NCBI RefSeq assembly: GCF_004025965.2 | Contig: NZ_SAYU02000038.1 | Location: forward strand, 1-41,788 | From: Phycicoccus flavus | GTDB lineage: Bacteria > Actinomycetota > Actinomycetes > Actinomycetales > Dermatophilaceae | DNA length: 41,788 bases | Reading direction: 5' to 3' | Shown: positions 5,030-17,918 of the stretch, piece by piece | How positions within the stretch are numbered: position 1 is the stretch's first letter | How the letters are laid out: the number at the start of each line of letters is the position of its first letter | Program-made: the position numbers and the translations under genes | Notes under the pieces: model-generated | Databases searched by the model: none | What the model was told of the DNA's origin: nothing | The model's input: only the letters and a program-made list of their open reading frames with translations

Positions 5030-6093
5030 GGGTCCTCGTCACGGGGGGCGCCGGGTTCATCGGCCAGCACCTGGCCCGCCGCCTGCACGCCGGCGGCCAC
5101 GACGTGCTCGCCCTGGACTCGCTGCTGCCCCAGGTACACGCCGACGCGGGCGCGGCCCGCGCGGCCTTCCCCGGCCCGGTCGTCGTCGGGGACGTGGCCG
5201 ACCCCGCCGCGTGGGCCGCCCTGCCCGAGGGCACGGTCGACGCCGTCGTGCACCTGGCCGCGGAGACCGGGACCGGGCAGTCGATGTACGAGGTCGAGCG
5301 CTACCACCGGGTCAACGTCGAGGGCACCCGCCTGGCGGCGCGGTGGGCCCGCGAGCACGGCGCCGCGCTGGTCTCGCTCAGCTCGCGCGCCGTCTACGGC
5401 GAGGGCGGGTACACCTGCCCCGAGCACGGCTCCACCTTCGGCCCCCGCTGCTGCCGGCACGGGCAGCCGGTGGCCTCCACCGAGGACGACCCGCACCGCC
5501 CGGTGTCGGTCTACGGCGAGACGAAGTCGCTGGCCGAGCAGGCCGCGGCCGACGAGGGCGAGGGCGTCGTGCCGCTCACCGTGATCCGCCCGCAGAACGT
5601 CGTCGGACCGGGCCAGGCCCTGCACAACCCGTACACCGGGGTCCTCGCGGCGTTCCTCGCCATGCTGCGCGAGGGCCGGCCGCTCACGGTCTACGGCGAC
5701 GGCCACCAGACCCGCGACGTCGTGCACGTCGAGGACCTCGTGGCCCTCGTCGCCTGGGCCCTCGACCGCCCGCCCGCACCCGGCGAGGCACGGGTCGTCA
5801 ACTGCGGCAGCGGGGTCCGCACCACCCTCGTCGGCCTCGCCGAGGCCGCGGCGGCGGGCGCCCCCGTCCCCTCCCCCGGCGTCACCCACCTCGACGTCCA
5901 CCGGGCCGGCGACATCGAGCACGCCTGCGCCGACCTCACCCGGCTGCGCTCGCTCGGGGCCCCGCCGCCGCGCTGGTCCGCCGCCGACGCCGTGGCCGAC
6001 TTCGTCCGTCGCTCCTGGCAGCAGCCCGGCGCGGACGCGGCCGCGTGGGACGACGCCCTCGACGAGCTCGCCCGCCGCGGCCTCACCTCGTGA
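5026..6093 (+). CDS. NAD-dependent epimerase/dehydratase (extended SDR) with Cys/His insertion
   Basis: A 355-aa extended short-chain dehydrogenase acting on a nucleotide sugar. The Rossmann motif GGAGFIG is at 7-13 and the catalytic YxxxK is Tyr163-Lys167 (YGETK). RPQNVVGPGQ and a DVVHVEDL segment fit sugar epimerases. Between the Ser strand and the Tyr lies an insertion with Cys131, His134, Cys142, Cys143 and His145 that could bind a metal. From memory, dTDP-L-rhamnose 4-epimerases (WbiB/Tll type) carry a YGEG...CPEHG segment like this, so that reaction is my first guess; UDP-sugar 4-epimerase is the alternative. Overlaps both neighbours by 4 nt. Confidence 0.88.
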   Translation: MRVLVTGGAGFIGQHLARRLHAGGHDVLALDSLLPQVHADAGAARAAFPGPVVVGDVADPAAWAALPEGTVDAVVHLAAETGTGQSMYEVERYHRVNVEGTRLAARWAREHGAALVSLSSRAVYGEGGYTCPEHGSTFGPRCCRHGQPVASTEDDPHRPVSVYGETKSLAEQAAADEGEGVVPLTVIRPQNVVGPGQALHNPYTGVLAAFLAMLREGRPLTVYGDGHQTRDVVHVEDLVALVAWALDRPPAPGEARVVNCGSGVRTTLVGLAEAAAAGAPVPSPGVTHLDVHRAGDIEHACADLTRLRSLGAPPPRWSAADAVADFVRRSWQQPGADAAAWDDALDELARRGLTS

Positions 6094-7100
6094 CGCCGCG
6101 CTCACGGGTCCTCGTCCTCAGCCCCGCCTTCCACGGCTACTGGCGCTCCCTGGAGCGCGCGCTGGCGGGGCGGGGCCACGAGGTACGAACCGTGCGCTAC
6201 GACGAGCGCGGGCCGGCCGGCCGCCTCGGCGCCAAGGCCCTGCACGAGCTGCCGGAGCGTCTCGGCGCCTCCGACGCGCGGCGCCGGGCGGCCCTCGGTC
6301 GCCGGGCGAGGAACGCGGTCACCGCCCACGACCCCGACGTGCTGGTCGTCGTCAAGGGCGACGCCTTCGACGACGACTTCTGGGACCTGCTCGCCGCCCG
6401 CCGGCAGCGCCGGGTGCTCTGGCTCTACGACGAGCTGCGGCGCACGGGGCACACCGCCCTGTCCCTGGCCCTCGCCGGCCCCGTCGCCTCGTACTCGCCC
6501 CTGGACGTCGAGGCCCTGCGGGCCCGCGGGCTGCGGGCCGAGCACGTCCCCCTCGCCCACGACCCGCACGAACCGGTCACCCCCTACCCGCCCCGCGACG
6601 AGGTCGTCTTCGTCGGGGCGCGCTACCCCGGCCGCGAGGCCCTGCTGCGCTCCCTCGCCGACGCCGGTCTCCCGGTCCGCGCCCACGGACGCGACTGGTC
6701 CGAGCACCCGGTGGACCGCGCGCGCACCTGGCGCCTCGGCACACCGGGACTGCCGGCCGGACGTGACCTGGCCCGCCCGGACGCCTACGGTGTCATGGCG
6801 GCGGCGACCGCCACGCTCAACATCCACGGGGACCAGGACGGCTTCACGATGCGGACCTTCGAGGCGTGCGGGGTCGGCGCGGTCCAGCTGGTCGACCGGG
6901 CCGACGTCGCGCGGCACTACGAGCCGGGCACCGAGGTCGCCGTCTTCTCGGGCGCCGACGAGGCGCGCGACCTCGCCCGACGGGCCCACACCGACCGGCC
7001 CTGGGCCGACGCCCTCCGTCGGGCCGGCCGCGCCCGCACCCTGGCCGAGCACACCTTCGACGTCCGCGCGCGGTCCCTGGAGGCGCTGTGGACGGCCTGA
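6090..7100 (+). CDS. CgeB-like glycosyltransferase
   Basis: A 336-aa protein resembling the CgeB/spore-maturation glycosyltransferase group (GT-B fold). The N-terminal Rossmann strand is VLVLSPAFHGYW. The C-terminal half has the hallmark segment ATLNIHGDQDGFTMRTFEACG followed by GAVQLVDR, comparable to the NIHR...S..RTFEA.ACG motif of CgeB proteins. GTG start, GTGA overlap with the epimerase. Donor sugar not predictable. Probably cytoplasmic and peripheral. Confidence 0.8.
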   Translation: MTPRSRVLVLSPAFHGYWRSLERALAGRGHEVRTVRYDERGPAGRLGAKALHELPERLGASDARRRAALGRRARNAVTAHDPDVLVVVKGDAFDDDFWDLLAARRQRRVLWLYDELRRTGHTALSLALAGPVASYSPLDVEALRARGLRAEHVPLAHDPHEPVTPYPPRDEVVFVGARYPGREALLRSLADAGLPVRAHGRDWSEHPVDRARTWRLGTPGLPAGRDLARPDAYGVMAAATATLNIHGDQDGFTMRTFEACGVGAVQLVDRADVARHYEPGTEVAVFSGADEARDLARRAHTDRPWADALRRAGRARTLAEHTFDVRARSLEALWTA

Positions 7101-8146
7101 CCCACCCGCGCGACCTCGAGGCGTGGCACCGGTGGCAGCTGGGCCGGCAGCCGCTCGCCCGGCGGGTCCGCCGGGTCGCGGGGGTCCTCGCGGAGATCGC
7201 CCGCCCGTCCCGTCGACCCGGCGGCGTCGTCGTCACCCGAGGCGGCACCGGCCCCGTACGCCTGCTCGTGGTCCTCGACGCCACCTCGCCGACCTCCCTG
7301 GCCGCCCTCCTGCGGCCGCTGGGCCACCTGCCGCTCGGGGACGTCGCCGTCGTCTCGCGCGACGCCGTCAAGCCCCTGCTCCCGCCGTGGGTGTGGCGCG
7401 AGAGCCAGGGCGTCGCGCACGAGGACCTGCCACGCCTGGCGTCCGGCGCCCCCGCGGTGCTCTCCGTCGGGCACTTCCTGCCCCTCGGCGCCGCGGCCCG
7501 CACGGCCGTCACCGACCCGTCGCGGTTCGTCACGGTGCAGCACGGCCTCCTCACCCCGCACGCCCCTCCCCTGGCCGAGGGCACCACCCTGCTGGCCTGG
7601 AGCGCCGGCGACGCCGACTTCTGGCGCTCCGGCCGCGACGACGTGAGCGCCCACGTCGTCGGCTCCCAGCTGCTGTGGGACGCCGCCGACCACCCCGCGA
7701 CACCGGACCCCGCCGCGCCGCCGGTCTTCCTCGGCCAGCTGCACAGCGCCGAGCTCGGCCGCGAGACCGCCGAGCGGGCCGCCGAGGAGTTCTGCCGCAC
7801 CCACGGGGCGCGCTATCGGCCGCACCCCTCCGAGACCGACCGCCGGTCCCGCGCCACGCACGCGCGCTGGGAGGCCGAGGGGATCGTCCTGGACCGGTCC
7901 GGCACCCCGCTGCGCGAGCTCGGGGCGCCGGTGGCGAGCGTGTTCTCGACCGGAGTGCTCGAGGCCGCCGCGGCCGGGCTGCCGAGCGGCGTCTTCCTCC
8001 CCGACCCGCCGTCCTGGGTGGCCGGGTTCTGGTCCCGCTACGGCCTGCGTCCCTGGGACGAGCGCCCCACCCCCTCGCCCGAACGGCCCGCCACCGAGCC
8101 GTCCCGCGCAGCGGCCACGGTGCTGGAGGGGATGATGGGGCGGTGA
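7088..8146 (+). CDS. uncharacterised GT-B-like protein, candidate nonulosonate transferase
   Basis: A 352-aa protein I do not assign to a named family. It has features of GT-B glycan enzymes: VTVQHGLLTPH in mid-protein (a VQHG motif as in capsule and CDP-glycerol transferases), RYRPHPSE, and a late VFSTGVLEAAAAGLPSGVF resembling the donor-site ST..EA..G.P pattern. It has no transmembrane helix or signal peptide. It lies directly before the CMP-nonulosonate synthetase and overlaps it in GTGA, which suggests it may use the CMP-sugar; that is inference from position only. GTG start overlaps the CgeB-like gene by 13 nt. Confidence 0.7.
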   Translation: MDGLTHPRDLEAWHRWQLGRQPLARRVRRVAGVLAEIARPSRRPGGVVVTRGGTGPVRLLVVLDATSPTSLAALLRPLGHLPLGDVAVVSRDAVKPLLPPWVWRESQGVAHEDLPRLASGAPAVLSVGHFLPLGAAARTAVTDPSRFVTVQHGLLTPHAPPLAEGTTLLAWSAGDADFWRSGRDDVSAHVVGSQLLWDAADHPATPDPAAPPVFLGQLHSAELGRETAERAAEEFCRTHGARYRPHPSETDRRSRATHARWEAEGIVLDRSGTPLRELGAPVASVFSTGVLEAAAAGLPSGVFLPDPPSWVAGFWSRYGLRPWDERPTPSPERPATEPSRAAATVLEGMMGR

Positions 8147-8841
8147 GGATCCTCTGCGTCGTGCCCGCCCGGGGCGGGTCCAAGGGCGTCCCGCGCAAGA
8201 ACGTCCGCGAGGTCGCCGGCCGGCCGCTGCTCGCGTGGACCGTCGAGCAGGCGCTCGCGGCCCGGCCGGCCATGGACGTCGTGGTCTCCACCGACGACGA
8301 CGAGATCGCCGAGGTCGCGCGGGCCGCCGGCGCCCTCGTCCCCTTCCGCCGTCCGGCCGGGCTCGCCCGGGACGACACGCCGACCGAGCCGGTCGTCCGG
8401 CACGCCATCGAGGCCGCCCGCGCCGCCGACGCCGCCCCCGACGCCGTGATGCTGCTGCAGGCCACCTCCCCCGTGCGGCTGCCGGGCACGGTGTCGCGGG
8501 CCGTCGCGCAGTTCACCGCGACCGGCGTCGACAGCCTCGTCGGCGTCGTGCCGCAGGCGCCGTTCATCTGGACCGACGGCCCCGAGCCGTCCGCCGCCTA
8601 CGACGTCACCGCCCGCCCCCGCCGCCAGGACCTCACCCCCGCGACCCTGCGCTACCGCGAGACCGGGTCGCTGTACCTCACCCGCACCTGGGTCTACGAC
8701 GAGCTCGACAACCGCATCGGCGGTCGCGTGGGGCTCTTCGTCATGGACGAGTCCGAGGGCGTCGACATCGACACCGTCCTCGACCTCGCCGTCGCGGAGC
8801 AGCGCCTGCTCGCCGCCACCGTCACCGGAGCCTCCACATGA
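8143..8841 (+). CDS. neuA: acylneuraminate cytidylyltransferase (CMP-nonulosonate synthetase)
   Basis: Activates a nonulosonic acid (sialic, legionaminic or pseudaminic type) with CTP to give the CMP-sugar donor. It has 232 aa, the usual length. The P-loop signature ARGGSKGVPRKN sits at 9-20, VVVSTDDDEIAEVA follows, then LLQATSPVR (substrate site). The metal-binding end is EGVDIDTVLDLAVAE. GTG start overlaps the previous stop, and its stop overlaps the neuB fusion start. Which nonulosonate is used cannot be decided; the symbol denotes the family. Confidence 0.93.
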   Translation: MRILCVVPARGGSKGVPRKNVREVAGRPLLAWTVEQALAARPAMDVVVSTDDDEIAEVARAAGALVPFRRPAGLARDDTPTEPVVRHAIEAARAADAAPDAVMLLQATSPVRLPGTVSRAVAQFTATGVDSLVGVVPQAPFIWTDGPEPSAAYDVTARPRRQDLTPATLRYRETGSLYLTRTWVYDELDNRIGGRVGLFVMDESEGVDIDTVLDLAVAEQRLLAATVTGAST

Positions 8842-11081
8842 TCATCGAACGCACCGTCACCCCCTACGTCGTCTACGGCGAGGACCCGGTCCTGCGCGCC
8901 CTGGAGAAGATCACGGCCAACAAGGCCCGGATCGTCTTCTGCGTCTCCGAGCACGGCCACCTGCTCGGCTCGATCTCCGACGGCGACGTCCGCCGCTGGA
9001 TCGCCGCCCAGGACGACGTCGACCTCTCCCGCCCGTGCGCCGACGTCGCGAACACCGGCGCCGTCCGGGCCCCGGCCACCGCCGCCCCGAGCGAGGTGCG
9101 GACGCTCTTCACCCCCAGCGTCGACCACGTCCCGCTCCTGGACGACCAGGGCCACCTCGTCGCGGTCGCCGTCAACCGCAGCGACGTCTTCCGGGTGGGC
9201 CGGCACGAGGTCGGCAAGGACCGGCCGGTCTTCGTCATCTCCGAGATCGGCATCAACCACAACGGGTCGGTCGACCTGGCCAAGCACCTGGTCGACCTCT
9301 CGGCCGCGGCCGGCGCCGACGCCGTGAAGTTCCAGCTGCGGGACATGGCCGCGCTCTACCGCGGCGGCTCGGGCAGCAGCGCCGGGGAGGACCTCGGCCC
9401 GCAGTACACCCTCGACCTGCTCTCCCGGTTCAACCTCCCCGCCGAGCGGCTCTTCGAGGTCTTCGACCACGCGGCGGGCCTGGGCGTCGACGTCATGTGC
9501 ACCCCCTGGGACCTGCCGAGCGTCGACGCCCTCGTCGAGTACGGCGTCCCCGCGCTGAAGATCGCCTCCGCGGACCTCACCAACCACACGCTGCTGCGGC
9601 ACGCCGCCGCCTCCGGCACCCCGCTCGTCGTCTCGACCGGGATGTCCACCGAGGCCGAGATCCGCGAGAGCGTCGCCCTCCTGCGCGCCACGGGGACCCC
9701 CTACGCCCTCCTGCACTGCCAGTCGACGTACCCGGCGCCCTTCAAGGACGTCAACCTCTCCTACCTCCCGCGGCTGGCCGAGCTCGGCGACTGCCCGGTG
9801 GGCTACTCGGGGCACGAGCGCGGCTTCCACGTGCCGCTGGCCGCCGTCGCCCTCGGCGCGACCATCGTCGAGAAGCACTTCACGGTCGACCGCTCGATGG
9901 AGGGCAACGACCACAAGGTCTCGCTGCTGCCCGAGGAGATGCGCGAGATGGTCCAGCGGATCCGCGAGGTCGAGGAGGCGCTCGGCGGCACCGGCCCGCG
10001 GCAGGTGTCCACCGGCGAGATGATGAACCGGGTCAACCTGGCCAAGAGCCTCGTCGCCGCCCGCGACATCGCACCGGGCGAGGTCATCGACGCCGGTGCC
10101 GTCGACGTCAAGAGTCCCGGCCGCGGCCTGCAGCCGAACGCCCTGCCGAAGCTCGTCGGGCGCACCGCGAACCGGGCCCTGGCCGCCGGCGAGTTCTTCT
10201 ACGCCTCCGACCTCGCCGACGGCGTGCCGAAGGGCCGCGACCACACCTTCCGGCGGCCCTGGGGGCTGCCGGTGCGCTACCACGACGTCGAGGCCCTCAC
10301 CGCCGACTGCACGCCGGGCTTCCTAGAGTTCCACTTCTCCTACAAGGACCTCGAGATCGACCCCGCCACCGCGATCCGCGGGCCGCTGCCGATGGGCTAC
10401 GCCTGCCACGCGCCGGACCTGTTCGCGGGCGACTTCATCCTCAACCTCGCGAGCGAGGACGACGCGCACTGGGAGCGCTCGGTCGAGGAGCTCCAGCGGG
10501 TCATCGAGACGACCCGCTCGATGCGGGGCCTGTTCACCCAGGACGCCGACCCGGTCGTCATCTCCAGCGTCGGCGGGTTCACCTCCGACCGGCACGTGCC
10601 GGTGGACGAGATCCCGGACATGTACGCCCGGGTGGCGGCCGGCCTGGACCGCGTCGACGACTCCGGGGTCCGCCTGGCCTGCCAGACCCTGCCGCCCTTC
10701 CCCTGGTACATGGGCGGCCAGCTGTACTGCAACCTCTTCGTCCGGCCCGACGACACCGCCGCCTTCGCCGAGCGCTACGGCCGCCGCCTGTGCCTCGACG
10801 TGTCCCACACCAAGCTCGCGTCCACCTTCCTCGGCATCCCCTTCTCCGAGGCCGTCGACGCGCTCGCGCCGCACGCGGAGCACCTGCACCTCGTCGACGC
10901 CGTCGGGGTCGACGGCGAGGGCGTCCAGGTCGGCGACGGCGAGGTCGACTGGGCGGTGCTCGCGGAGCAGCTGGACGCGCTCGCCCCCGACGCCGGGTTC
11001 ATCCCGGAGATCTGGCAGGGCCACGTCAACGGCGGCGAGGGGTTCTGGGTGGCCCTCGAGCGGCTGGAGCAGTGGTTCTGA
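8838..11081 (+). CDS. CBS - NeuB - SAF - TIM-barrel isomerase fusion (nonulosonate synthase)
   Basis: A 747-aa multidomain protein; plain NeuB proteins are about 340-360 aa. Residues 1-125 are a CBS pair (GSISDGDVRRW; HVPLLDDQGHLVAV). Residues 130-390 form the NeuB TIM barrel that condenses an N-acyl sugar with PEP (EIGINHNG from Glu136, KIASADLTN, STGMSTEAE, EKHFTVDRSMEGNDHKVSL from Glu345). Residues 395-462 are an SAF/antifreeze-like domain. Residues 485-747 resemble AP-endonuclease-2/xylose-isomerase-like sugar isomerases (LEFHFSYKD, LCLDVSHTKLAS, HLHLVDAVG, FIPEIWQGH). There is no stop or frameshift, so this is a true fusion. The C-terminal domain could supply or adjust the hexose substrate, and the CBS pair could sense nucleotides; both are inference. 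Confidence 0.93.
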   Translation: MIIERTVTPYVVYGEDPVLRALEKITANKARIVFCVSEHGHLLGSISDGDVRRWIAAQDDVDLSRPCADVANTGAVRAPATAAPSEVRTLFTPSVDHVPLLDDQGHLVAVAVNRSDVFRVGRHEVGKDRPVFVISEIGINHNGSVDLAKHLVDLSAAAGADAVKFQLRDMAALYRGGSGSSAGEDLGPQYTLDLLSRFNLPAERLFEVFDHAAGLGVDVMCTPWDLPSVDALVEYGVPALKIASADLTNHTLLRHAAASGTPLVVSTGMSTEAEIRESVALLRATGTPYALLHCQSTYPAPFKDVNLSYLPRLAELGDCPVGYSGHERGFHVPLAAVALGATIVEKHFTVDRSMEGNDHKVSLLPEEMREMVQRIREVEEALGGTGPRQVSTGEMMNRVNLAKSLVAARDIAPGEVIDAGAVDVKSPGRGLQPNALPKLVGRTANRALAAGEFFYASDLADGVPKGRDHTFRRPWGLPVRYHDVEALTADCTPGFLEFHFSYKDLEIDPATAIRGPLPMGYACHAPDLFAGDFILNLASEDDAHWERSVEELQRVIETTRSMRGLFTQDADPVVISSVGGFTSDRHVPVDEIPDMYARVAAGLDRVDDSGVRLACQTLPPFPWYMGGQLYCNLFVRPDDTAAFAERYGRRLCLDVSHTKLASTFLGIPFSEAVDALAPHAEHLHLVDAVGVDGEGVQVGDGEVDWAVLAEQLDALAPDAGFIPEIWQGHVNGGEGFWVALERLEQWF

Positions 11082-12151
11082 GCGCTCGCCCGCTCGCCCT
11101 CTGGGTCCTGCCGGTCTCCGACCTCGGCGGGGTCGCCCGGCACGTCCTCGACGTCGCCGAGGTCGGCGTCCCCGGGTGGCGGCTCGCCGTGCTCTGCCCG
11201 CCCGGGCCGCTCGCCGACCGGCTCCGGGCCCTCGGCGCCGACGTCCGCACCGCACCGGTCGGACCGGACGACGGGGTCCGCGCGTCCGTGGCCGCGGTCC
11301 GGCGGGCCGTCCGGGAGCTCGCGCCGGCGGTCGTCCACTCGCACCTGTCCTGGGCCGACGTCGTGGCCGCCGCGGCGACCCTTGGCTCGCCCGCCGCGCT
11401 CGTCACCACCGAGCACGGCATCGCCGACGACGACCTCGTCTACCACGGCACCGCGTGGCGGGCGCGGCTGAAGGAGGCGCTGCACACCGCGCGCCTGCGC
11501 CGCGCCGACGCGGTGGTCGCGGTGTCCGGGGCGACCGCCCGCAGCATCACCCGCAAGTGGCACCCGGGCGCCCGGACCCCGCTGCACGTCGTCCGCAACG
11601 GCCTGGACCGGCCGGCCACGCCTCCGGTCCGCGAGCCCGGGCTGCACGTGGTCTCGGTGAGCCGGCTCGCGCCGGAGAAGCGGCTCGACGCGCTGCTCCA
11701 TGGGTTCGCCGTGCTGCACCGGGAGCACCCGCGGGCGCGGCTCACCCTGGCCGGCACCGGACCGGACGAGGCGGCCCTGCGCTCCCAGGCCGACACCCTC
11801 GACGTCGCCGGGGCGGTGACCTTCCCCGGCCACGTCGAGGCCGCCGACCTGCTGGCCCGCGCCGACGTCCTCGTCCAGCTGTCGGTGTGGGAGAACTGCT
11901 CGTACGCGCTGCTCGAGGCCCTCGGCCACGGCTGCGGCGTCCTCGCCTCCCCCGTCGGCGGCAACCCCGAGATCCTCCCCCGTGCCGCCCTCGTCGACCC
12001 CCGCGACCCCGCGGCGGTGGCGGCCGGCGTCGTCCGCCAGGGCCTGGACCCGACCACCCGCCCACGCCTGGACCCCGCCTGGCCCACCCGCGCGGACATG
12101 ACGGCGGCGGTCTCGGCCGTCTACGCGGGCGCCGTGGAGCCCCGGCGATGA
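11072..12151 (+). CDS. glycosyltransferase family 4
   Basis: A 359-aa GT-B retaining glycosyltransferase. The glycine-rich N-terminal region is VLPVSDLGGVARHV. The GT4 domain has VSRLAPEKRLDALL, LTLAGTGPDEAAL, FPGHVEAADLLARADVLVQLS and the donor-site WENCSYALLEALGHGCGVLAS. The start is uncertain: GTG at 11072 overlaps the neuB fusion by 10 nt; a CTG at 11078 would give the usual 4-nt overlap. Acts on the cytoplasmic face on a lipid-linked intermediate. Confidence 0.88.
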   Translation: MVLSARPLALWVLPVSDLGGVARHVLDVAEVGVPGWRLAVLCPPGPLADRLRALGADVRTAPVGPDDGVRASVAAVRRAVRELAPAVVHSHLSWADVVAAAATLGSPAALVTTEHGIADDDLVYHGTAWRARLKEALHTARLRRADAVVAVSGATARSITRKWHPGARTPLHVVRNGLDRPATPPVREPGLHVVSVSRLAPEKRLDALLHGFAVLHREHPRARLTLAGTGPDEAALRSQADTLDVAGAVTFPGHVEAADLLARADVLVQLSVWENCSYALLEALGHGCGVLASPVGGNPEILPRAALVDPRDPAAVAAGVVRQGLDPTTRPRLDPAWPTRADMTAAVSAVYAGAVEPRR

Positions 12152-16325: not shown

Positions 16326-17918
16326 GTGAGCGGGCCCGGGGCGGTGCCGGACCCCGGGGGTCGTCCGAACGGACCGAAGCGCGCCGCGGCCGCCACGCCG
16401 GCGCCGGGCCCGGGTGATGATGCCGGGACGCCCCCCGTCCCCGACGCCACGACCCCGATGACGGTTCACGAGCTGCTGGCCCCGACGCTCGACCGACGCT
16501 CCACCCGGTGGAACCGCCGGGCGCCGGTCGTGGCCGCGATGCTCGTCGACCTCCTCCTGCTCGTCGTCGTCACCCTCTCCGCGGGCTTCGGCCGGGCGGT
16601 CCTGCCGGTCTTCCGGGAGGCCGGGGACGTCCCCGAGCTCGTGGCCGCCGCCGGTCCGCCGATCGTCCTCGGCTGGTTCGCCGTCATCGCCCTCTCCGGC
16701 GGCTACGCCCCGCACCTGCTCGGCGCCGGCACCCAGGAGTACAAGCTCGTCGTGCGGGCCTCCCTCGTCGCCGCCGGCGCCATCGGGGTCGTGAGCTTCC
16801 TCGGCAAGGTGCCGCTCTCGCGCGGGTTCTTCTTCCTCCTCATCATCATCGGCGTCCCGCTGCTGCTGCTCGGCCGTCACCTGCTGCGCCGGGTCGTCCA
16901 CCTCCTGCGGCGACGCGGCCTGCTGTGCCACCGGGTCGTCGTCGCCGGCTCCGCGGCCTCGGTCGACGAGGTGACCACCGTGCTGCGCCGCGAGCCGTGG
17001 CTGGGGTTCACCGTCGTCGGCGCCCTCGTCCCCCCGTCGGAGCACACCGACGTCACGCCCGGCGGCATCCCCGTCCTCGGCACGACGGCCCGCACCGCCG
17101 CGGTCGTCGGCGACGCCGACTGCGACATCGTCCTGTTCGCCGGCGGTGCCGTCTCCTCCGCCCGGGCGATGCGCCGCGCGGCCTGGGACCTCGAGGACAC
17201 GAACGTGCAGATCATGCTCGTCCCGAGCCTCACCGACGTCTCCACCGACCGGGTCCGCGCCCGCCCGGCCGCGGGGCTGCACCTCATGGAGCTCGAGGGC
17301 CCGCGCGCGCACCGCGCCAGCCGGGTCTCCAAGCGCGCGTTCGACATCGTCGGCGCCGGGCTGTGCCTCGTCCTCGCGAGCCCGGTGCTCCTGGCGACGG
17401 CGGTGGCCATCCGCCGGTACGACGGCGGCCCGGTGATCTTCCGGCAGCGCCGGGTCGGGCGGCACGGCGACTTCTTCGACTGCCTGAAGTTCCGCTCGAT
17501 GGTGGTCGACGCCGACCGGCTGCGCCCCGAGGTGGCCGAGAACATGCACGGCGAGGACCACGTCCTCTTCAAGGACGCCCACGACCCGCGGGTCACCCCG
17601 CCGGGCCGGGTCATCCGCCGCTTCTCGGTCGACGAGACCCCGCAGTTCCTCAACGTGCTGCGCGGCGAGATGAGCCTCGTCGGCCCGCGACCCCCGCTGC
17701 CCGGCGAGGTCGAGCAGTACACCGACGAGGTGCGCACCCGGCTCGCCGTCCGCCCCGGGATGACCGGCCTCTGGCAGGTCTCCGGGCGCTCGGACCTGTC
17801 CTGGGAGGACTCGGTGCGCCTCGACCTGTACTACGTCGACAACTGGTCGCTGGTCCAGGACCTCGCGATCCTGTGGCGCACCGTGTCCGCGGTGCTCACC
17901 GGCCGCGGCGCCTACTGA
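16326..17918 (+). CDS. polyprenyl-phosphate sugar-1-phosphate transferase (WbaP/WcaJ type)
   Basis: Begins lipid-linked glycan assembly by moving a sugar-1-phosphate to undecaprenyl phosphate. It has 530 aa. A Pro/Gly-rich, probably disordered N-terminal tail (about 45 aa) precedes four N-terminal membrane segments (AAMLVDLLLLVVVTLSAG, PPIVLGWFAVIALSGG, ASLVAAGAIGVVSFL, FFFLLIIIGVPLLLLG). A CoA-binding-like linker follows, then the bacterial sugar transferase domain from about residue 334 with FRQRRVGRHGDFFDCLKFRS, SLVGPRPPLPGEVE and RPGMTGLWQVSGRSDLSWED. GTG 16326 is chosen; ATG 16458 would remove the tail. Last gene of the operon. Confidence 0.92.
   Translation: MSGPGAVPDPGGRPNGPKRAAAATPAPGPGDDAGTPPVPDATTPMTVHELLAPTLDRRSTRWNRRAPVVAAMLVDLLLLVVVTLSAGFGRAVLPVFREAGDVPELVAAAGPPIVLGWFAVIALSGGYAPHLLGAGTQEYKLVVRASLVAAGAIGVVSFLGKVPLSRGFFFLLIIIGVPLLLLGRHLLRRVVHLLRRRGLLCHRVVVAGSAASVDEVTTVLRREPWLGFTVVGALVPPSEHTDVTPGGIPVLGTTARTAAVVGDADCDIVLFAGGAVSSARAMRRAAWDLEDTNVQIMLVPSLTDVSTDRVRARPAAGLHLMELEGPRAHRASRVSKRAFDIVGAGLCLVLASPVLLATAVAIRRYDGGPVIFRQRRVGRHGDFFDCLKFRSMVVDADRLRPEVAENMHGEDHVLFKDAHDPRVTPPGRVIRRFSVDETPQFLNVLRGEMSLVGPRPPLPGEVEQYTDEVRTRLAVRPGMTGLWQVSGRSDLSWEDSVRLDLYYVDNWSLVQDLAILWRTVSAVLTGRGAY

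Follow-up and report, generated by a model that had tools for sequence, protein, structure and literature searches.

To our knowledge, the synthesis of 3-deoxy-D-glycero-D-galacto-nonulosonic acid (Kdn) in most bacteria is poorly known. Going by the available text of the reports, Kdn occurs in Streptomyces walls (PMC11481543, PMC7831098), and the Kdn routes of Bacteroides and Prymnesium run via mannose-6-phosphate and need a phosphatase (PMC6200933). The closest described enzyme to the one considered here is the NeuB of Serratia marcescens (KL1/KL2), whose 2241-bp open reading frame (ORF) carries an extra COG1082 sugar-phosphate isomerase/epimerase domain; a neuB mutant had fourfold lower sialic acid and lost its capsule, both being restored by complementation, and the capsule contained mainly Kdn, with N-acetylneuraminic acid (Neu5Ac) at about one twentieth (PMC9000132). 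According to the authors, this NeuB may have further functions; their study found both the product and the unusual domain, and the available text gives no reason for the latter (PMC9000132). Here we describe a gene in a 41,788-nucleotide stretch of Phycicoccus flavus (contig NZ_SAYU02000038.1, hereafter the window) which joins a CBS pair, a NeuB condensing domain, the SAF cap and a xylose-isomerase-like barrel in one chain, and which we read, with a probability of about 0.5, as a Kdn synthase that carries its own enzyme for the acceptor side and is controlled by its end product.

Architecture, spread and active site

The gene forms a single frame (M...F*) of 747 residues with zero internal stops, and all four Pfam-A matches of its product exceed their curated cut-offs, which bears out the four-part, intact frame proposed in the sequence-only reading. 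The start codon is backed by a 4-base overlap with the upstream cytidine monophosphate (CMP)-sugar synthetase gene (8143-8841), and relatives begin at the same start. Pfam detects the first CBS repeat alone; the second is supported by an N-terminal profile of the family (30 sequences), which matches the CBS pair of arabinose-5-phosphate isomerase 4o9k at positions 12-111. In a genome search the fused gene was the sole NeuB match of the P. flavus genome. Its parts are as follows.

8838..11081, + strand: four-part gene, CBS pair-NeuB-SAF-xylose-isomerase-like barrel, 747 amino acids
8838..9191, + strand: CBS pair at the N-terminus (Pfam CBS, residues 9-56, 28.9 bits, cut-off 24; second repeat weaker)
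9288..9989, + strand: NeuB condensing domain (residues 151-384; PF03102, 265.5 bits, cut-off 22.1)
10044..10214, + strand: SAF/antifreeze-like cap (residues 403-459, 48.2 bits)
10113..10115, + strand: Ser426, in place of the N-acetylmannosamine (ManNAc)-binding Arg314 of Neisseria meningitidis NeuB
Residues 521-731: AP_endonuc_2/xylose-isomerase-like barrel (PF01261, Pfam 66.7 bits)
10203..11078, + strand: C-terminal barrel, modelled stretch (predicted local distance difference test, pLDDT, 89.6; predicted template modelling score, pTM, 0.89)

Among 98 genomes (P. flavus included), the whole four-part frame was found in 12, at 59-100% identity, and three further genomes carry the barrel in a form split in two places (G010), without CBS (G059) or as the barrel part only (G056), giving 15 barrel carriers in total. 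When 396 genomes sampled evenly across the phylum were searched, 27 matched the barrel: the window's own, three further strong matches (G412, G431 and G428) and 23 that were weak, with E values from 1.2e-6 to 4.3e-4. Scanning a species-genome collection with the barrel returned 447 stretches, of which the best 80 were kept, with spread beyond Actinomycetota under-sampled. By title, all of these best 80 belong to Actinomycetota (Phycicoccus, the nearest named relative, Nocardioides, Micrococcus, Rothia, Sinomonas, Microbacterium and others), and 76 hold a single frame that begins at or before query residue 3 and ends at or after residue 746, the exceptions being two loci with frame breaks (L045 and L106), one without CBS (L104) and one cut by its contig (L109). 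With the same frame in 76 of the 80 kept loci, a fusion artefact or frame error was rejected, and because 12 of the 98 genomes and 76 of the 80 scan loci hold it whole, the four-part frame is far beyond chance. The two breaks lie around 8616-10852 in L045 (Phycicoccus sp. HDW14) and around 8604-10843 in L106 (Rothia aeria), where either sequencing error or loss could account for them, while the CBS-free fusion of Janibacter massiliensis (L104, 8963-10852) is nested in the tree among four-part relatives, where the absence of CBS is probably a secondary loss.

All four parts also occur on an Ensifer canadensis plasmid, at 48% identity, and six viral contigs carry NeuB-SAF-barrel without CBS; phage records held plain NeuB pieces alone (three records), with no fusion seen among them. 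On two of the viral contigs the CBS-free gene and a CMP-sugar synthetase gene lie close to a GT29 sialyltransferase (PF00777; L123 8340-8969, E 3.1e-19; L126 7751-8350, E 6.5e-20), possibly a virus-borne sialylation set. The architecture is thus common in Actinomycetota and not the rarity for which it had been taken from the sequence; the notion that it might be common and have an assigned role holds for the first half, and for the existence of a Serratia NeuB with an extra domain, but the barrel has no role assigned in the available text of that paper (PMC9000132). The architecture is therefore partly known already from Serratia; a literature search found, in the papers examined, nothing further on fused or CBS-bearing NeuB proteins.

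A maximum-likelihood tree built from 62 NeuB domains places the 49 fused ones on one side of one branch (98/96), consistent with a widespread family of probably single origin. Under midpoint rooting the CBS-free L016, L127 and L128 diverge first, and the nearest plain kin are SAF-less short NeuBs (four included). Eight such SAF-less short NeuBs (L153-L156 and L159-L162) were seen in relatives of the same order or family and, being capless, they also lack the Arg314 position. The branching suggests that NeuB-SAF-barrel may have arisen first and that CBS joined later, an order to be read as a suggestion because the tree tool warns of long branches there.

For the active site, we aligned the window protein with proteins from 45 of 86 loci (alignment A4), selected by length and by sharing <82% identity across their 270 C-terminal residues, with L045, L106 and L109 left out; positions were mapped by eye from printed alignments, except for position 426 in the plain-NeuB control, which was mapped with MAFFT. 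PF03102 is matched by all 46 proteins, and Glu136, Lys164, Gln166, Lys241, His326, Glu345 and His347, the metal- and PEP (phosphoenolpyruvate)-site residues placed by this mapping, are invariant (46/46). Relative to Neisseria NeuB, Phe112 is replaced by Trp224 (Phe in two proteins), Asn184 by Ser296 and Phe288 mostly by Asn400. Position 426 is Ser in 44 proteins, Gly in one and Cys in one, and never Arg. Arg314 is described as the lone SAF residue that reaches the active site, where it makes contact with ManNAc; the R314A variant has no activity (PMC6795526, available text). As a control, all 32 plain NeuB matches from the 98-genome search were aligned; 24 have SAF, all 24 of which keep the arginine, and eight lack SAF. 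Arginine is also found at this place in the solved PseI 8h2c. Given the loss of the Arg314 equivalent in 46/46 fused proteins, their site seems built for an acceptor without an N-acetyl group, and we consider Kdn, rather than an N-acetylated sialic acid, to be the product with somewhat better than even confidence.

The barrel, the CBS pair and a proposed pathway

The PF01261 match and the TIM fold of the model agree with the earlier assignment of the C-terminal part to the isomerase family; membership in a different, non-isomerase family was rejected on the Pfam match, the alignment with MJ1311 and the structure model. Ketose 3-epimerases of the D-tagatose 3-epimerase type have four metal ligands, Glu-Asp-His-Glu, and two catalytic Glu. 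Two sets of barrel positions are considered here.

10683..10685, + strand: Gln616, which is Glu in MJ1311 and in early-branching fused proteins
10797..11009 (span), + strand: Asp654, His657, His684, Asp687, Asp692, Glu694 and Glu724, invariant polar residues (46/46)

Gln616, Asp654, His684 and Glu724 sit at successive strand ends, as mapped via MJ1311 and the strands of the model rather than by direct alignment with an epimerase; with Gln at the first of these places, the complete ligand set of such epimerases is probably lacking. In total, 19 polar barrel residues are identical in all 46 proteins, from bacteria and viral contigs alike. The equivalents of His577 and Glu616, a pair that serves as metal ligands in endonuclease IV, are absent in 44 of the 46 and both kept in the early-branching members; most of the family probably lacks the full zinc ligand set of that enzyme. 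The barrel is a relative of the ketose-epimerase/isomerase barrels in which a predicted metal-ligand pair has changed, and its site appears to be remodelled yet strongly conserved. That the barrel makes the hexose substrate, a possibility raised in the sequence-only reading, is the best reading, mannose or mannose-6-phosphate being most likely what it supplies; its acting as a catalyst on the acceptor side by isomerisation we rate a little short of even.

The best-scoring solved relative of the CBS profile is 4o9k (E 6.1e-12, 49.1 bits). KpsF/GutQ models (TIGR00393 kpsF) were matched by all 30 CBS sequences at E 0.01, with scores below the whole-protein cut-offs, and HhpR by 23 of the 30. KpsF is the isomerase that precedes PEP condensation in the 3-deoxy-D-manno-octulosonic acid (Kdo) pathway, and 4o9k presumably holds CMP-Kdo; a search for this found nothing direct. 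Because the CBS pair resembles that of KpsF, feedback by CMP-Kdn is plausible; by analogy CMP-Kdn would be the ligand here, in line with the nucleotide feedback control proposed from the sequence.

In the proposed scheme, the barrel, working next to the synthase, would turn fructose or fructose-6-phosphate into mannose or mannose-6-phosphate by isomerisation, the NeuB domain, with its catalytic residues kept and its N-acetyl-binding arginine lost, would condense PEP with this mannose-type acceptor, and SAF would close over the active site of the partner, as it does in other NeuBs. The CBS pair may sense CMP-Kdn, the product of the enzyme that the overlapping upstream gene encodes, and shut the synthase off, as its likeness to the CBS pair of KpsF suggests. 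A single chain would thereby unite what the Kdo pathway splits between KpsF (isomerase and CBS) and KdsA (PEP condensation). In its fullest form the proposal is a one-gene Kdn synthase in which fructose or fructose-6-phosphate is isomerised in a barrel remodelled from a two-metal ancestor, followed by PEP condensation and shut-off by CMP-Kdn via CBS; that every one of these details holds is rather doubtful. If true, this gene and one CMP-synthetase gene would make a complete sialic-acid pathway, present in Actinomycetota, on a rhizobial plasmid and, in the CBS-free form beside a GT29 sialyltransferase, on viral contigs.

Acceptor supply and competing explanations

None of the 15 barrel-carrying genomes has a NeuC (TIGR03568) match over the cut-off; eight of them, P. 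flavus included, have no match at E 0.001 and seven have sub-threshold matches. NeuC passes the cut-off in four of the 98 genomes (G025, G031, G038 and G049), and in every case a plain NeuB lies no more than 100 bases away. Neighbourhoods of up to 10 kb were scanned around 88 fused loci (the window, Ensifer, 80 genome loci and six viral loci), with gene calls from a codon-usage script and neighbours matched by blastp at fixed thresholds, and many of these neighbourhoods end at a contig edge. Within them no NeuC-like gene was found, a DegT aminotransferase occurs once (L113) and a CBS-nucleotidyltransferase once (L076). With the N-acetyl-binding arginine lost and no NeuC partner found, substrates derived from N-acetylglucosamine (GlcNAc) are unlikely, and the earlier suggestion of uridine diphosphate (UDP)-GlcNAc or GlcNAc derivatives is not upheld. 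Two NeuC-linked plain NeuB clusters (L157 and L158) carry a CBS-nucleotidyltransferase, a dehydratase and an aminotransferase and look by eye like legionaminic-type operons.

Two other candidates were considered and set aside, the PF07221 epimerase as a dedicated partner and NanE as the source of ManNAc. The PF07221 epimerase occurs in 11 of the 14 fused genomes searched, yet is found in 60 of 98 overall and in all 12 genomes of the window's genus, fusion or not; being so common, and absent from the fused G014, G058 and G059, it is not tied to the fusion. NanE is matched at E 0.001 in 10 of 14 fused genomes, of which six pass the cut-off, clearly so in G058 and G087 alone (at least 172 bits), the other four, P. 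flavus among them, scoring 27 to 34 bits. G014 has the four-part enzyme and no match to NeuC, NanE or PF07221, so that none of the three searched ManNAc routes is seen there.

Several observations weigh against the Kdn synthase reading. At position 616, 44 of 46 proteins have Gln at the usual place of a ligand Glu, and a mannose-6-phosphate acceptor would weaken the isomerase reading, since ordinary mannose-6-phosphate isomerase already provides that sugar and a phosphatase would then be the step that is lacking. Among solved relatives of the CBS pair, 2yzq (PH1780; E 1.1e-11, 48.2 bits) is nearly tied with 4o9k, and the window protein's own best NCBIfam CBS match is HhpR, not KpsF; in view of the near-tie of the KpsF-type match with another CBS protein, we hold CMP-sugar feedback through the CBS pair only tentatively. 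The P. flavus genome encodes a PF07221 (AGE-family) protein that could make ManNAc or mannose, as well as a candidate NanE, a weak match of 34 bits against a 27-bit cut-off, and since both are present ManNAc is a possible metabolite there. At the fused loci, NeuD-like acyltransferase matches occur at 5 of 88, and generic dehydratase (short-chain dehydrogenase/reductase) matches of low identity to a LegB-like query at 32 to 33 of 88. Finally, the presumed kinship with the Serratia enzyme rests on the published domain description and a matching length, and because Serratia also makes about 5% Neu5Ac (PMC9000132, available text), such an enzyme may tolerate ManNAc.

The barrel could instead be a metal-dependent phosphoesterase which dephosphorylates mannose-6-phosphate or Kdn-9-phosphate, given a short stretch that it shares with endonuclease IV and the retention, in the early-branching members, of His577 and Glu616, metal ligands in that enzyme. 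This would provide the phosphatase that the Bacteroides and Prymnesium Kdn routes via mannose-6-phosphate need (PMC6200933, available text) and that was not recognised by eye among the commonest neighbour clusters; we nonetheless regard it as unlikely. The change at two predicted metal-ligand positions would also fit a barrel which is no longer an enzyme and acts as a scaffold or sensor positioning or regulating the synthase, and a second catalysis is not strictly needed if housekeeping enzymes supply mannose-6-phosphate; however, 19 polar residues identical in 46/46 proteins are hardly needed by a scaffold, and we see only a small chance of this.

The version first proposed from the sequence, with Neu5Ac or a relative as product and the barrel as the source of ManNAc or of another acceptor derived from GlcNAc, would agree with the best NCBIfam match, N-acetylneuraminate synthase TIGR03569, and with some Neu5Ac in the Serratia capsule, but the score (308.5 bits) is below the 399.65-bit cut-off, Arg stands at the Arg314 place in 0/46 fused proteins and Kdn predominates about 20:1 in Serratia (PMC9000132, available text), making this improbable. 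That the product is a di-amino nonulosonate (legionaminic or pseudaminic type), that its sugars come from enzymes encoded elsewhere in the genome and that the fusion is incidental is likewise improbable in spite of two strong DegT aminotransferase matches in the genome (286 and 195 bits), one adjoining, by eye, a polysaccharide-type dehydratase gene, as the genome has no NeuC-family match, the relatives' amino-sugar operons accompany plain NeuBs that retain Arg, and the pseudaminic acid synthase model TIGR03586 (PseI) scores 237.9 bits, below its 340.25-bit cut-off.

Locus and comparison with known systems

The fused gene encodes the nonulosonate synthase of a surface-polysaccharide cluster, whose other genes encode an ATP-binding cassette (ABC) transporter, glycosyltransferases, including those of family 4, a hexapeptide-repeat transferase, an NAD epimerase, two proteins resembling guanosine diphosphate (GDP)-mannose dehydratase and the following.

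6090..7100, + strand: glycosyltransferase (Glyco_trans_1_2), neighbour conserved in 65/88 loci
7088..8146, + strand: conserved gene, candidate transferase, 62/88 loci, GT-B-like motifs by eye
8143..8841, + strand: CMP-nonulosonate synthetase (CTP_transf_3), overlapping the start of the fused gene, 71/88 loci
11072..12151, + strand: family 4 glycosyltransferase, neighbour conserved in 67/88 loci
16458..17918, + strand: exopolysaccharide polyprenyl glycosylphosphotransferase, TIGR03025 over cut-off

The presence of the polyprenyl glycosylphosphotransferase indicates that a surface polysaccharide is assembled here on a lipid carrier. Around the fused loci no neighbour is commoner than the CMP-sugar synthetase (found in L126 and L128 also, by Pfam), followed by the two glycosyltransferases and then by the family of gene 7088-8146. 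This last gene matches none of the Pfam families above their cut-offs, and a PDB search gave no relative for it; QHG, RPHP and STGVLE motifs are invariant in the family, and from its sequence it is a candidate Kdn transferase.

A fused barrel combined with loss of the arginine would serve as a sequence rule by which Kdn makers could be recognised in genomes. By this rule hundreds of sites are candidates (one scan gave 447 stretches), Rothia and Nocardioides species among them. If the barrel does supply the acceptor, the protein would offer a compact means of producing Kdn, and labelled sialic acids, with an inexpensive sugar as starting material.

The Serratia NeuB resembles the protein described here in combining NeuB with an isomerase/epimerase domain within a single ORF of nearly equal length, about 2.24 kb (2241 versus 2244 bp), and in having a CMP-sialate synthetase gene adjoining the fused neuB, and only neuA and neuB are named as sialic-acid genes; it differs in belonging to a Gram-negative capsule, and CBS has no occurrence in the main text of that paper (PMC9000132, available text). 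The Kdn-9-phosphate synthases of Bacteroides thetaiotaomicron and Prymnesium parvum share the proposed Kdn product and the PEP chemistry, but a separate phosphatase step is involved and neither a fused barrel nor CBS is described in the available text (PMC6200933). Neisseria meningitidis NeuB/SiaC (1xuu) likewise has NeuB and SAF with the catalytic residues kept, but it has neither CBS nor barrel and uses ManNAc via Arg314, where Ser426 stands here. MJ1311 (3wqo), a D-tagatose 3-epimerase-like barrel which no paper in our literature search names, is stand-alone, and has His and Glu where most fused proteins have Ser/Thr and Gln. The CBS-nucleotidyltransferases of L157 and L158, which we take to be PtmE-type, also place a CBS module within a nonulosonate pathway, joined there to the nucleotidyltransferase and here to the synthase. 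KpsF/KdsD, finally, couples an isomerase to a CBS pair and acts before a 3-deoxy-ulosonate synthase that depends on PEP, an arrangement that the fused protein may share, but its isomerase is of the SIS fold and its chain is separate from KdsA.

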